DNA of 64,000 nt from NCBI GenBank assembly GCA_019112635.1, contig DXIX01000014.1:39661-103660 (forward strand). The letters run 5' to 3'. Source of the DNA: Candidatus Blautia intestinigallinarum (lineage in GTDB: Bacteria > Bacillota > Clostridia > Lachnospirales > Lachnospiraceae). The position numbers and the translations under genes are program-made. The number at the start of each line of letters is the position of its first letter. Position 1 is the stretch's first letter. The notes beneath the pieces were generated by a model, which had not been told where the DNA came from, did no database searches, and saw only the letters and a list, made by a program, of their open reading frames with translations. Below are positions 14,918-21,744 of the stretch, one piece after another.

Positions 14918-15877
14918 TTACTCTTCTGATGGCTGCAGCTGCAGTCCCAGCTCTTTTAACTTCGCCAGTACTTCCTCCAGTGACTTACGTCCCAGGTTAC
15001 GAACTTTCATCATATCCTCGGAAGTACGGTTGCACAACTCTTCTACGGTATTGATTCCGGCTCTCTTCAGACAATTGTAAGAACGTACGGACAGTTCCAG
15101 CTCATCAATACTCATCTCCAGAACCTTCTCTTTTTCATTGTCCTCTTTCTCGATCATGACTTCTGCTGTCTTCGCATTTTCGGAAAGATCAATGAACAAG
15201 CTTAAGTGTTCACTCAATACTTTTGCTGCCAGGCTGACTGCCTCATCCGGATCCAACGTTCCATTTGTATATACGTCCAACGTCAGTTTATCATAATCTG
15301 TAATCTGACCAACACGGGTATTCTCCACTACCAGGTTCACCCGGTCAACCGGAGTGTAAATGGCATCCACAGCGATCACACCGATCGGCATATCATCGGA
15401 TTTGCCTTTCTCTGCGCTCACATAGCCTCTGCCCTTGGTGATTGTCAGCTCCATCGCAAGTCTGCAGTCTTTGCCGCCGTTAAGCGTCGCAATAACCTGA
15501 TCCGGATTCATAATCTCAATATCCTGATCTGCCTGGATATCAGCTGCAGTCACAACACCCTTGCCCTCGCACTCAATGTACGCGGTCTTCGGCTCGTTGT
15601 CATTGCTCTTATTCTTGATTGCCAGACTCTTCAGATTCAGGATGATCTCACTGACATCTTCCTTCACACCCGGAATTGAGCTGAATTCATGAAGCACGCC
15701 ATCGATCTTCACCTGGCTCACCGCAGCTCCCGGAAGAGAAGAAAGCATAATTCTTCTCAGGGAGTTTCCCAAAGTTGTTCCATATCCTCTCTCCAGAGGC
15801 TCAACTACAAATCTGCCGTATTTTTTATCTTCAGAGATTTCAGTAATTTCAATTTTGGGTTTGTTAAAATCAAACAC
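14918..15877 (-). CDS. rpoA: DNA-directed RNA polymerase alpha subunit
   Basis: '[31 protein letters not shown]' and alpha-CTD '[19 protein letters not shown]'. Confidence 0.98.
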
Positions 15878-15935: not shown

Positions 15936-16529
15936 TTATTTGGAGTACAACTCGACGATAAGCATCTCGTTTACAGGTACATCAATGATGTCTCTGGTAG
16001 GCAGCTCTTTCACTGTACCTCTCAATGCTTCCTGGTCTACATCCAGCCATTCCGGAACCAGTCTTCCGCCTGTAACCTCCAGAATTCCTTTGTATCTCTC
16101 GGAACCTTTACATTTCTCTTTTACTTCGATCACATCTCCTGCTTTTACCAGGTAAGATGGGATGTTTACAACTTTACCGTTCACGGTAATATGTTTGTGA
16201 TCTACGATCTGTCTTGCTTCTCTTCTGGTTCTTGCAAATCCCATACGGAATACAATGTTATCCAGTCTGCTCTCCAGAAGCACCATCAGGTTCTCACCTG
16301 TCTGGCCCTGCATTTTATCTGCTTTCTTATAGTAGTTGCGGAAAGGTTTTTCCAGAACTCCATAAATGAATTTTGCTTTCTGTTTTTCTCTCAGCTGCAG
16401 GCCGTACTCAGACATCTTACGGTTGGTACGTTTCAGCTGTCTGGTTGATTTTTTATCAATTCCCAAGTAGATTGGGTCCAGATCCAGAGATCTGCATCTT
16501 TTCAGAACCGGCACTCTATTTACTGCCAT
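15936..16529 (-). CDS. rpsD: 30S ribosomal protein S4
   Basis: S4 domain 'LDNIVFRMGFARTRREARQIVDHKHITVNGKVVNIPSYLVKAGD'. Confidence 0.97.
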   Translation of the reverse strand: MAVNRVPVLKRCRSLDLDPIYLGIDKKSTRQLKRTNRKMSEYGLQLREKQKAKFIYGVLEKPFRNYYKKADKMQGQTGENLMVLLESRLDNIVFRMGFARTRREARQIVDHKHITVNGKVVNIPSYLVKAGDVIEVKEKCKGSERYKGILEVTGGRLVPEWLDVDQEALRGTVKELPTRDIIDVPVNEMLIVELYSK

Positions 16530-16546: not shown

Positions 16547-16939
16547 TTATACTCTTCTGCGTTTTGGTGGACGACAACCGTTGTGTGGAACTGGTGTCAC
16601 GTCACGGATACTGGTTACTTCCAGGCCGCATGCCTGAAGCGCACGGATAGCAGCTTCTCTTCCGGAACCTGGTCCTTTTACCATTACGTCTACAGTTTTC
16701 AATCCATGAATCAGAGCAGCTTTGGTAGCTGTCTCAGCAGCCATCTGAGCTGCATAAGGGGTAGATTTCCTTGAACCTTTAAATCCCAGACCACCGGCAC
16801 TTGCCCATGAAAGAGCGTTTCCTTCAGTATCTGTCAGTGTAACAATGGTGTTATTGAAAGAAGACTGAATATGTGCCTGTCCGCGTTCAACGTTTTTCTT
16901 GACACGACGTTTTGTCGTTTTCTTAGTCACTTTTGCCAT
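16547..16939 (-). CDS. rpsK: 30S ribosomal protein S11
   Basis: '[30 protein letters not shown]', '[17 protein letters not shown]'. Confidence 0.97.
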
Positions 16940-16971: not shown

Positions 16972-17340
16972 TTATTTCTTCTTATTTGCAACAGTTCTCT
17001 TAGGACCTTTTCTGGTTCTTGCGTTTGTCTTGGTCTTCTGGCCACGAACCGGAAGTCCTTTTCTATGACGGATACCTCTGTAGCATCCGATCTCCTGAAG
17101 TCTCTTGATGTTCAGAGCGATCTCTCTTCTCAGATCACCTTCCACCATCATGGTCTCATCGATCACTTCACGGATTCTGTTCACTTCTTCATCAGTCAGA
17201 TCTCTGACACGAGTGTCAGGATTTACTTTCGCATCTGCCAGGATGCGGGTTGCGCTTGGTCTGCCGATTCCATAGATATAGGTCAGACCGATCTCTACAC
17301 GTTTGTCTCTTGGTAAGTCTACACCAGCTATACGAGCCAT
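16972..17340 (-). CDS. rpsM: 30S ribosomal protein S13
   Basis: '[26 protein letters not shown]', '[25 protein letters not shown]'; start trimmed from 17400, upstream GGAGG. Confidence 0.97.
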
Positions 17341-17656
17341 GTAATATTCCTCCATCTTTCTACAGAAAGCCTGCTTCGTACGCCACGTATGGAACTCCAT
17401 ACGGTGAAATGGGACGTATCTTCCGCCGCTCTCAGTTAATATTGTTCCTAATTGGGGTGTCTCGGTATCACACCCAGCTACGGGAACCTCCCCCGTAACC
17501 TTTCCGATTGACTGGCCTTAGCCCGTCGTATCCTGAAAAGGATCTCCGAAATAGCCTCTCGGTATTAGGCAATATAATATTTAAACAGTGTGAACAACGC
17601 TTCCGGGTGTTCCCACTGCAGCCGCCTAAATACGCACAAACTGTCCTGGTCGGAAA
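17341..17656 (-). ncRNA. Candidate structured intercistronic/leader RNA between rpmJ and rpsM
   Basis: 316-nt gap with several inverted repeats on the minus strand (17586-17618, 17530-17543, 17479-17497, 17455-17475, 17386-17403, 17356-17369); no supported ORF. Confidence 0.45.
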
Positions 17657-17770
17657 TTAACCCTGACGCTGTTTGTGTTTCGGATTTTCACAGATTACTC
17701 TGATGCTTCCTTTTCTCTTGATAATCTTGCATTTTTCGCAAATCGGTTTCACAGATGATCTTACTTTCAC
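17657..17770 (-). CDS. rpmJ: 50S ribosomal protein L36 (GTG start, 37 aa; absent from the ORF track)
   Basis: Manual minus-strand translation: (M)[36 protein letters not shown]; upstream GGAGG. Confidence 0.96.
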
Positions 17771-17905: not shown

Positions 17906-18838
17906 TTATTCCACGGTCTCCACAATCATCTCCTCCGCGCCCTGGAAATCATTCTGGTAGTACTGAAGAATATGATTACGAAAAGCGATCTCCGCTCCTT
18001 TCAGCCTCCGGTCCTTTTTGTAAACCAGCATCGTCCACAGTTTTTCTTTTGGTTCAATACGGTAAGCTTTCGCCGGTCCTTTTGCAATTTCCCTGGCCAC
18101 GGACTCTGTGGCCAGAAGAATTCCTGTTCCGGACGCAATCATCTCCAGCATTAAATCTATCGCCTTTGTGTTGAAAAAGGCAACATTGAATCGGATATGA
18201 TTTTTCTCATATATATTTTTCATATAATCATAAAGAGAGGATCCCTTCTCTCCTGTGAGCAGAGGCAGATCACCCAGCTTCTTGATCTGAATGAACTCTT
18301 CCTCCTCGCAGTCGTTTTCCCGGTTGATCACCGCGCATAGGTTTTCTTCTGCCAGAATATCGTAAATAAGCCCGGAGGGAACATCGTCCGGAATCGCTTT
18401 GATAATGGCAAAATCAATCTTCCCTTCGCTGAGTAAATCAAAAGCCTTATAGTTTTCCATAACTTTCAGGCTTCCCAGCACATTGGTATTAGTGGAAAAA
18501 AAGTTGGTAATCGCCTGCGCCAGCCCTGACACTCGATAGAACGGAAACACGCCCACATTCAAAAACGTCTTCTGATCCGACCTGCCTTGACCGAAGGCCT
18601 CTGTCAGATTGTCCACTGCCTCCAGCACCTTTTTCCCATACTCACAGAAACGCTCTCCATCTTTTGTCAACGTGACTTTATGGGTATCCCGAAGGAATAA
18701 CTTAGTCTGTAATTCATTCTCCAAGGCACTGATCTGCTGGGAAATTGCAGGCTGCGTAATGAATAAAGTCTTGGCCGCTCCGGAAAAACTTTTTTGTTTT
18801 GCAATCTCCAACACGTAATAAATCTGTCGTATCTCCAT
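17906..18838 (-). CDS. LysR-family transcriptional regulator
   Basis: N-terminal HTH 'MEIRQIYYVLEIAKQKSFSGAAKTLFITQPAISQQISALENELQTKLF'; start trimmed from 18916. Confidence 0.92.
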   Translation of the reverse strand: MEIRQIYYVLEIAKQKSFSGAAKTLFITQPAISQQISALENELQTKLFLRDTHKVTLTKDGERFCEYGKKVLEAVDNLTEAFGQGRSDQKTFLNVGVFPFYRVSGLAQAITNFFSTNTNVLGSLKVMENYKAFDLLSEGKIDFAIIKAIPDDVPSGLIYDILAEENLCAVINRENDCEEEEFIQIKKLGDLPLLTGEKGSSLYDYMKNIYEKNHIRFNVAFFNTKAIDLMLEMIASGTGILLATESVAREIAKGPAKAYRIEPKEKLWTMLVYKKDRRLKGAEIAFRNHILQYYQNDFQGAEEMIVETVE

Positions 18839-18924
18839 CTTAGACTCTCCTATCTCTCCCATCTGCGAGTCTGCGAGTTTCAATTTTCTGATGATTATAG
18901 CAAAATTTTCTCTCATTTTAAAGC

Positions 18925-18954
18925 TTATAATCGGAACTTATAAAAAGATTATAA
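18925..18954. promoter_or_regulatory. Putative LysR operator: three TTATAA palindromes
   Basis: TTATAA at 18925, 18938 and 18949 in the divergent LysR/M20 intergenic region. Confidence 0.4.
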
Positions 18955-19039
18955 ATACCAATTTCCAATTTTTATTTTTCGTTTATATAATATACACAAA
19001 TTTTATAAATGTTTTTTATAGAAAGACAGGTGATAATCT

Positions 19040-20221
19040 ATGAACGACTTTTTGAAAGAAGCCAAAGAATTACAGGAAGAACTGACTTCGAACCGCCGTT
19101 ATCTCCACGCCAACGCGGAGACCGGTTTCGATCTTCCCAAAACCGTCGCTTTTGTGATGGAAAAACTTACCTCCTATGGGTACACTCCCATCCCCATGGG
19201 CGGCGGCATCGTCTGTACCTGCGGAATTCCTGGCAAAACTTTGATGATCCGAGCGGATATGGATGCGCTTCCCCAGCAGGAAGCCTCCGGCCTTCCCTTT
19301 GCCTGCCAGGATGGCGCCTGCCACTCCTGTGGTCACGATTCACACATAGCCATGCTTTTGGGAGCTGCGAAAATCCTGAAGGCCCATGAATCCGAGTTAA
19401 AAGGCACAGTAAAATTTCTCTTTCAGCCTGCAGAAGAACTGCTGGGCGGAGCAAAGAGCATGATCAAAGCCGGAGCTTTAGAGAATCCCAAAGTGGATGC
19501 CGCCATGGCCTTCCACATTAATTACGGGCCGATCATGGATCAAAATTTTCAGGTGGGCACACTATTCTACAGTGAGCAGGAGTCCTGCGCATCTGCCGAT
19601 GCCTTCGAGATCACTGTCCACGGCACTTCTGCCCACGGAAGTACGCCACATGTAGGCGTCAACGCCTTAAGTGTTGCCGCCAACATCATCGTGGCCCTGC
19701 AGCAATTCTTTACCTTACAGGTACCCTCTGATGAGCCATCGATTATGTCCATCTGCCAGCTCCACTCGGGAAGCGCCTCCAACATCATTCCCAGCGAAGC
19801 CGTCATGCAGGGCAGCATCCGAACCTTCACCAGAGAAAACCGTGCTTTTCTGCTGAAACAGCTTCATGACCTGACGGTAAAAACTGCTCAGATGTGGGGA
19901 GCCACTGCAGAAGTCAATATCTTCGCCGGCACAGGCCCAACAATTAATGACCGCAGCCTCAGTGCAGAAATGGGAGACTATTGTCGGGAAGTACTGGATG
20001 ATGTCCAGGTCATTCCGCCCCAGACATTTTCGGAAGATTTCTCTTACTACGGTGAACATGTCCCTACCTTCTTCGCCATGCTCTACGCAGGCGGACCGGA
20101 ACTGGGGCATCAATACTCGCTGCACGATCCCAGGGCAACTTTTGATGAATCCGCATTGCCTTATGGCAGCGCAGCTTTCTGTAACTGCGCATACCAATGG
20201 CTGAAAAATCACTGTGAATAA
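19040..20221 (+). CDS. M20-family amidohydrolase/peptidase
   Basis: 'IRADMDALPQQEASGLPFACQDGACHSCGHDSHIAMLLGAAKIL', 'KFLFQPAEELLGGAKSMI', typical M20D metal-site motifs. Confidence 0.92.
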   Translation: MNDFLKEAKELQEELTSNRRYLHANAETGFDLPKTVAFVMEKLTSYGYTPIPMGGGIVCTCGIPGKTLMIRADMDALPQQEASGLPFACQDGACHSCGHDSHIAMLLGAAKILKAHESELKGTVKFLFQPAEELLGGAKSMIKAGALENPKVDAAMAFHINYGPIMDQNFQVGTLFYSEQESCASADAFEITVHGTSAHGSTPHVGVNALSVAANIIVALQQFFTLQVPSDEPSIMSICQLHSGSASNIIPSEAVMQGSIRTFTRENRAFLLKQLHDLTVKTAQMWGATAEVNIFAGTGPTINDRSLSAEMGDYCREVLDDVQVIPPQTFSEDFSYYGEHVPTFFAMLYAGGPELGHQYSLHDPRATFDESALPYGSAAFCNCAYQWLKNHCE

Positions 20222-20239
20222 GATTGGGGGAGAGATTCT

Positions 20240-21412
20240 ATGAATGGTTTACACGCACTGACAATTATTCTATTAATCTATGCCATCGGCGACTTCGTTG
20301 CCACCAAGACAAAAGCGATTATCTCCATGCTGTTCGTGGCAGCTGTGATCTTCGCAATCTGCTTCTGGAACGGTCTTCCTTCCACCCTTTTCGAAGACTC
20401 TACTTTAATGGCCTTCTCCAGCGTCACCATCGGAATGATGCTGGTACATATGGGAACCACCATCAAACTTGCAGACTTTGTGCAGGAATATAAGACCGTC
20501 ATCATCGTCCTGTGCTCCACACTGGCTATCTGCGGCGGTGTTTATTTCATAGGAAGAATTTTTATCGATGAATACTACGCTCTGGCGAGTGCCCCTGTGC
20601 TGGGCGGTGCCGTCGTTGCCTTCCTGGTCATGACAGAGGCCATGAACAACATTGGAGCCACCGATGCCGCAGCTTTTGCCTCCCTGATTTTGATCATTCA
20701 GGGCATTGTCGGTTTTCCCATTGCCTCCATCTGCTGCAAAAGAGAAGCTCTCCGTCTAAAGAGTGAGATCGCAGCCGGACGGGTGAAGCTTGAAAAAAAA
20801 GAAGAGAAAAAAGAAGAAAAACCAAAATGGAGAATTATCCCTCCAATTCCGGACAAATATAACGGGGACAACCTGCTCCTTGCCAAACTGGCTGTGGTTG
20901 CCTGTCTGGCACAATGGCTGTCCAACCTGACCAATGGAAATGTCAACAATCTGGTCATCTGTCTTCTTCTGGGCGTGTTTTTCCGTGAGATTGGCTTCCT
21001 GGATGAGGCACCTTTGACCAAGGCTAATGGTTTTACCTTCGTCATCGGGGCTGCTCTGGTCAATGTCTTCACCAGCCTGGCCACTTCCACGCCTCAGATG
21101 ATCCTGTCCATGATCCGGCCTTTGATCATTGTCATCATCATCGGCGTGATCAGTTTTGCTTTGGTGTCCATCCTGGTCGGAAAAATTTTCAAACAAAGCT
21201 GGTATATCTGTATCGCTATGGCTTCGACGGCTCTCTTTGGTTTTCCGGGAACCTTCATTGTGTCCAATGAAGTAGCAAATGCCTCCGCGGACAATGACGA
21301 GGAGCGTGAGATTCTTCTGCAGAACATTATGCCGAAAATGATCATCTCCGGTATGGTCTCCGTATCCATCGTGTCTGTAGTTGTGGCCGGTGTCATGGCC
21401 GGATGGGTATAA
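20240..21412 (+). CDS. Multi-pass membrane protein, probable transporter (family not identified)
   Basis: 390 aa, about 10 hydrophobic segments with a charged central loop 'KLEKKEEKKEEKPKW'; 19 bp after the M20 gene. Confidence 0.75.
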   Translation: MNGLHALTIILLIYAIGDFVATKTKAIISMLFVAAVIFAICFWNGLPSTLFEDSTLMAFSSVTIGMMLVHMGTTIKLADFVQEYKTVIIVLCSTLAICGGVYFIGRIFIDEYYALASAPVLGGAVVAFLVMTEAMNNIGATDAAAFASLILIIQGIVGFPIASICCKREALRLKSEIAAGRVKLEKKEEKKEEKPKWRIIPPIPDKYNGDNLLLAKLAVVACLAQWLSNLTNGNVNNLVICLLLGVFFREIGFLDEAPLTKANGFTFVIGAALVNVFTSLATSTPQMILSMIRPLIIVIIIGVISFALVSILVGKIFKQSWYICIAMASTALFGFPGTFIVSNEVANASADNDEEREILLQNIMPKMIISGMVSVSIVSVVVAGVMAGWV

Positions 21413-21525: not shown

Positions 21526-21744
21526 TTATTTATCGCGCCAGATGATTCTGCCCTTGGACAGATCATAAGGAGAAAGTTCTATCGTCACTTTATCTCCCGG
21601 CAGAATACGTATGAAATTCATACGAAGTTTTCCGCTGATATGAGCAAGCACCACATGCTTATTTTCCAGCTCTACTTTGAACATCGCGTTTGGCAGCTTC
21701 TCCAACACGGTACCTTCTACTTCAATTACGTCTGCTTTTGACAT
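21526..21744 (-). CDS. infA: translation initiation factor IF-1
   Basis: '[67 protein letters not shown]'. Confidence 0.98.

Follow-up and report, generated by a model that had tools for sequence, protein, structure and literature searches.

The S4-Clostridia leader (Rfam RF03140) was described by Eckert and Weinberg in 2020 as a likely leader for ribosomal protein S4, found in Clostridia upstream of rpsM-rpsK-rpsD-rpoA-rplQ (PMC7247131). In the text of the source paper, S4 binding and regulation of the operon are themselves predictions, and whether the leader imitates rRNA is left open by its discoverers (PMC7247131).

The window analysed here is a 64,000-nt stretch of Candidatus Blautia intestinigallinarum (contig DXIX01000014.1). 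On its minus strand, a gap of 316 nt (17341-17656) separates the end of rpmJ (L36) at 17657 from the ATG of rpsM at 17340. The first gene behind this leader is rpsM (S13; 16972-17340), followed on the same strand by rpsK (S11; 16547-16939), rpsD (S4; 15936-16529), and rpoA (RpoA; 14918-15877), all identified by NCBIfam matches, and by rplQ (L17; 14306-14911), identified by reading its translation. The sequence places the rpsM Shine-Dalgarno GGAGG at 17349-17353 (minus strand). As a single strand, the gap folds better than 100 of 100 dinucleotide shuffles (z -2.9). A preliminary description of this DNA listed a series of inverted repeats in the gap, every one of which is present on the minus strand, and two copies of ATACCGAGA, which we confirmed. 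Its statement that the gap is very long for this junction does not hold, as the equivalent gap spans 200-656 nt in relatives bearing RF03140. The repeats that appear to matter are those called P3, P4, D1, and D3 below, which are conserved and covary across relatives. The ATCCT/AGGAT repeat (17543-17530, minus strand), present in the window, is absent from most relatives in the gap comparison. Another, CTTTC/GAAAG (17369-17356, minus strand), adjoins the Shine-Dalgarno sequence.

Further upstream, three genes at 17906-21412 sit between infA (21526-21744) and rpmJ. These are a LysR-type regulator (minus strand), an M20 peptidase (19040-20221, plus strand), and a multi-pass membrane protein (20240-21412, plus strand) with no Pfam match. 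The distance from infA to rpmJ is 15-1302 nt in 38 related loci and below 410 nt in 37 of them. Elsewhere in the window, the minus strand carries an S10-Clostridia r-protein leader (RF03136; 34235-34317, 94.9 bits) and a T-box leader (RF00230; 52876-53107, 96 bits).

The gap was compared with about 170 rpmJ-rpsM gaps from Lachnospiraceae. An unselected family sample held 131 distinct rpsM loci, in 117 of which the gap was 60 nt or longer; these were picked as rpsM loci, so that their adjacency to rpsM is by selection.

In the middle of the gap lies a known RNA. A cmscan search against Rfam 15 matched RF03140 at 17447-17504 (minus strand, 58 nt) with 49.5 bits against a gathering score of 37.5 (E 7.4e-10 over the window), over the full length of the model (positions 1-55). 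This core is composed of GAAAGG, hairpin P3 (TACGGG...CCCGTA, 17497-17492/17484-17479, minus strand), hairpin P4 (GGGTGT...ACACCC, 17475-17470/17460-17455, minus strand), and CCAAUUAGG; both hairpins are part of the Rfam model. The site is upstream of rpsM, rpsK, rpsD, rpoA, and rplQ, where the family is located, and the genome is clostridial, its genus relatives belonging to Blautia and the Lachnospiraceae. RF03140 was found in 49/60 genomes of the window's genus and in 42/150 Lachnospiraceae genomes. An order-wide sample gave 7/146, all seven within Lachnospiraceae. Wherever both genes could be read, the element lies between rpmJ and rpsM. The preliminary description had called the gap an uncharacterised element, to be refuted by a hit to a described Rfam family. 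This label fails for the core, where 17447-17504 scores above the RF03140 cut-off, and survives for D1, D3, and the P1/P2 extension. Its proposal of an r-protein leader ahead of rpsM-rpsK-rpsD-rpoA, responsive to S4 or S13, is sustained to the extent that such a leader is present, with S4 as the published guess at its ligand and a core already catalogued as RF03140 (PMC7247131).

Outside the core, the gap has no above-threshold match among 4227 Rfam 15 families. Eight loci bearing D1 and D3, searched against Rfam at E values up to 0.5, returned nothing except sub-threshold Alpha_RBS matches. No description of D1 or D3 was found in the literature searched, which took in few subscription papers and only the main article of PMC7247131. 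D1, D3, and the P1/P2 extension are conserved or covarying parts without an Rfam entry, though P1 and P2 may already be drawn as borderline stems in the additional files of PMC7247131.

The S4 element itself is larger than the Rfam model by a further covarying stem, P2 (17504-17562, minus strand), in which CCGA at 17562-17559 pairs with UCGG at 17507-17504, outside that model. Across loci, CCG(A/G) 3' of a UAAUA box pairs with the bases leading into GAAAGG. In the family loci, pairing with the partner from the same locus gives -7.63 kcal/mol, against -4.39 kcal/mol with shuffled partners (z -10.7), and the pairing also stands out within the genus (z -5.3). The window holds one alternative local partner for P2, UCGG at 17549-17546. 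A terminator-like site at 17562-17546 was rejected, as the one found is within chance (0.7 expected).

A second added stem, P1, is proposed at 17439-17575 (minus strand), with CCUAAU 17569-17564 paired to AUUAGG 17452-17447 and AUAUUG 17575-17570 paired to CAAUAU 17444-17439. RNAalifold recovered it from the genus alignment. In the family, AUUGCCUAAU pairs with its own AUUAGG..CAAU better than with that of the other clade (z -5.0); the sequence is fixed inside a clade, and the covariation lies between two clades only. P1 probably closes the S4 element into a four-way junction. The element also carries a second UACCG copy that is not due to chance. This copy is found in the P4 loop of 47/48 genus loci (5.3 expected), and UACCG occurs in the P3 or P4 hairpin of 22/38 family loci (3.7 expected).

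In many other genera (loci L002-L036), the 5' strand of P1 can alternatively pair with AAUAUNNNN further upstream, a competing stem (anti-P1) that shows compensatory changes (z -4.3), and a two-state switch in their S4 element is possible. It is not claimed for the window because the upstream pairing is only weakly kept there. Imitation of rRNA was also considered. The GUGCGGCUG segment presumably resembles the 3' end of Firmicutes 16S rRNA, and we take CAUUUCACC to be antisense to the 690 loop. This mimicry was set aside as evidence: rRNA matches 7-9 nt long are not uncommon, and a 16S rRNA for the comparison was not found in the four genomes searched. The extended junction would be a better target for asking if this leader is an imitation of the 16S rRNA site for S4.

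Downstream of the core lies D3, a hairpin at 17379-17418 (minus strand) that ends 38 nt upstream of the rpsM start codon, just before the Shine-Dalgarno sequence. It is composed of two stems and a CAUUUCA internal loop. Stem a (17418-17414/17383-17379, minus strand) is followed by a one-sided bulge, CCCAUUU (17413-17407), then by CA/UG (17406-17405/17385-17384) and a bulged C at 17404. Stem b (17403-17397/17392-17386, loop 17396-17393, minus strand) is the CGTATGG...CCATACG repeat. A candidate outer stem around D3 (17365-17433, minus strand), in which GAGAGC 17433-17428 would pair with GCUUUC 17370-17365, was seen by eye in the genus alignment and competes with CUUUC/GAAAG 17369-17356.

The covariation analysis of related gaps that the preliminary description proposed was carried out with our own script in place of R-scape, under a null that preserves phylogeny. 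Covarying pairs were found, the best of them in D3. The genus alignment, built from sequence alone, held 47 distinct loci; among its 39,092 column pairs the top five all lie in D3, and the first structural pair after these five belongs to P3 of RF03140. Taken one by one, two D3 pairs are significant or nearly so (E 0 and 0.12), and the next range from 0.5 to 1.4. With the structure given, type A of D3 (31 sequences from the window genus and two other genera) has 95.7% of its cells paired and 50 two-sided changes, against 12.1 in shuffled controls and at most 11 when the structure is slid along the alignment. Type B, from nine other genera, is 99.0% paired with 31 two-sided changes (9.0 when shuffled). 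In the family, type B loops that end in CAGG are opposite AGC in 13 cases and those that end in CAGA are opposite GGC in 11, with no crosses, which looks like a co-varying non-canonical pair. What joins the two types is only their position and their CAUUUCA core.

The hairpin is not a by-product of its loop motif: when CAUUUCA was kept and its flanks were shuffled, a hairpin of at least 10 pairs arose in 18% of trials, against 78% of real loci. A specific D3 pattern has 30 matches in a collection of 85,462 genomes; in 29 of them rpsM begins no more than 260 nt downstream, and the thirtieth is cut off by the end of its stretch. The window's own genome has a single strong D3. About half of the Lachnospiraceae have the identical operon and no D3, so D3 is not essential. 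A covariance model of type A (R1), run on 200 family genomes, returned only window-like types and weak 35-nt matches away from rpsM. This model was too narrow, and therefore all rpsM leaders were read instead.

Upstream of the core lies D1 (17586-17625, minus strand), in which GCGGCUG (17625-17619) is followed by a hairpin of CAGUG/CACUG and GAACA/UGUUC (17618-17586). GCGGCTG is present in 92 of the 117 family gaps, a few of these being the P3 3' arm and not D1, where 0.95 would be expected from shuffled letters; on the reverse strand of the same gaps there is none. A stem of at least 6 bp stands directly 3' of GCGGCTG in 87% of cases, compared with 50% at random anchors. RNAalifold on MAFFT alignments of D1 or of mixed-type D3 gave zero or four pairs because loop lengths vary, and splitting by type gave a clear signal. 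D1 and D3 share two features looked for in r-protein leaders: conserved, covarying structure, strong for D3 and weaker for D1, and a consistent position directly upstream of r-protein genes.

Other families of the order likewise have GCGGCTG ahead of rpsM, in most cases with no CATTTC at all. In some of these (L209, L211, L212, L214, L215, L219, L224, L230-L232, L234), GCGGCUG lies shortly 3' of a promoter-like TTGATT..TATAAT and a TTTGTG box, so that the rpsM transcript probably starts only a short way upstream of it. Loci from other genera (L106, L123, L125, L136, L137, L145-L147, L150, L164, L166-L168) have another common leader upstream of rpsM, of the pattern CTTGCTTT(T/C)TGTGTTACAA ... 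TTGTGATATTGTGG ... TGTCATTATCA ... CACAATTTAAAGCGGCTG with D1 at its end. It has the look of one more structure not yet catalogued, carried by genomes that lack the S4 element.

The distribution of the parts ties D1 to D3. D3 was called in 49/117 gaps, namely in 49/92 with GCGGCTG and 0/25 without, an association of about 1e-7 by a hand-worked hypergeometric estimate that takes no account of kinship. The detector used for D3 is permissive: it gives 3.9 matches per shuffled set and 14 on the reverse strand, which means that a few of the D3 calls are noise. D1 and D3 are found together in 37/75 loci without RF03140 and in 12/42 with it, and 22/42 RF03140 loci have D1 without D3. By these counts, D1 and D3 come as a single unit, independently of the S4 element.

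We therefore read the gap, with some confidence, as a composite cis-regulatory leader for the rpsM-rpsK-rpsD-rpoA-rplQ part of the operon, in which the S4 element would sit between two parts of an undescribed second element. For the core, feedback by S4 through this middle element is both the published reading and the likeliest one: surplus free S4 would probably bind the P3/P4 region within the four-way junction and thereby lower expression of the downstream genes. D1 and D3 would form the second structured element, most likely a joint protein-binding site that controls rpsM translation. Their cooperation is suggested because D3 adjoins the Shine-Dalgarno sequence and is never found without D1, and D3's position together with its fixed internal loop suggests a candidate protein-binding site acting on translation. 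Candidate ligands are the operon's own proteins S11, S13, L17, and S4, or another factor. A bolder form of this reading, offered tentatively, is that D1 and D3 are a new r-protein leader class with S11, S13, or L17 as ligand, spread over much of the Lachnospiraceae and, in Blautia and its relatives, stacked with the S4 leader, which would place one operon under the control of two r-proteins.

A simpler arrangement would make S4 the sole regulator, with D1 and D3 serving the S4 element as its expression platform or as auxiliary contacts. All three parts do share one short leader in the window genus, where RF03140 lies between D1 and D3, and PMC7247131 gives S4 as the ligand for several unrelated leaders of this operon. 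The many loci with D1 and D3 and no RF03140, and those with RF03140 and D1 and no D3, indicate instead that leader parts are gained and lost independently, and we consider S4-only control unlikely. It is also rather improbable that D1 and D3 enhance translation, stabilise the mRNA, serve RNase processing, or bind an RNA-binding factor that is not an r-protein. A hairpin directly before the Shine-Dalgarno sequence would suit such roles, as would the presence of GCGGCUG before rpsM in other families of the order where D3 is not seen. However, a strictly kept internal loop within covarying stems, with co-varying non-Watson-Crick bases, would be more typical of a specific recognition site.

That RF03140 alone is functional and the other hairpins are chance accounts for part of the folding z-score, but is already contradicted by D3, whose covariation in the genus alignment exceeds that of the RF03140 stems, and by the recurrence of D1 and D3 in dozens of genera; it is very improbable. 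At the start of rpsM, a pseudoknot of the kind that S4 binds in the E. coli alpha operon (RF00140) is scarcely credible, since its weak matches (17.4 bits over 17308-17381 in the window, 24.1 bits in locus L110) fall far under the 38-bit cut-off and align mostly conserved codons of the rpsM N-terminus.

Lachnospiraceae are dominant gut bacteria, and little is known about how they balance r-proteins with the alpha subunit of RNA polymerase. An uncatalogued, conserved RNA pair that accompanies the S4 leader before rpsM, or stands in for it, would offer a new r-leader candidate that is easy to test. It would also show leaders being exchanged and stacked on an operon that ranks among the most conserved in bacteria. 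To our knowledge, no stacked pair of independent leaders has been described ahead of the alpha operon.

Like r-protein leaders in general, the gap holds structured RNA directly before an r-protein operon and near a Shine-Dalgarno sequence. It shares with Alpha_RBS of the E. coli alpha operon (RF00140) the operon, the rpsM junction, and S4 as the likely ligand. The two differ in form: Alpha_RBS is a pseudoknot over the start codon, whereas the window has hairpins and a junction without significant similarity to it. The S4 leaders of Fusobacteriales, Bacteroidia, and Flavobacteria described in PMC7247131, and the Firmicutes rpsD leader with GUAA, are likewise r-protein leaders of S4-encoding operons; the Rfam 15 search gave no match to any of them in the gap. 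The closest relative is RF03140, with the same operon position in a clostridial genome and a full-length match above the gathering score. Its 55-position model comprises P3 and P4 only. The window adds P2 and probably P1, which would make a four-way junction, and a further UACCG copy that recurs in the P3 or P4 loop, and its core is flanked by D1 and D3.
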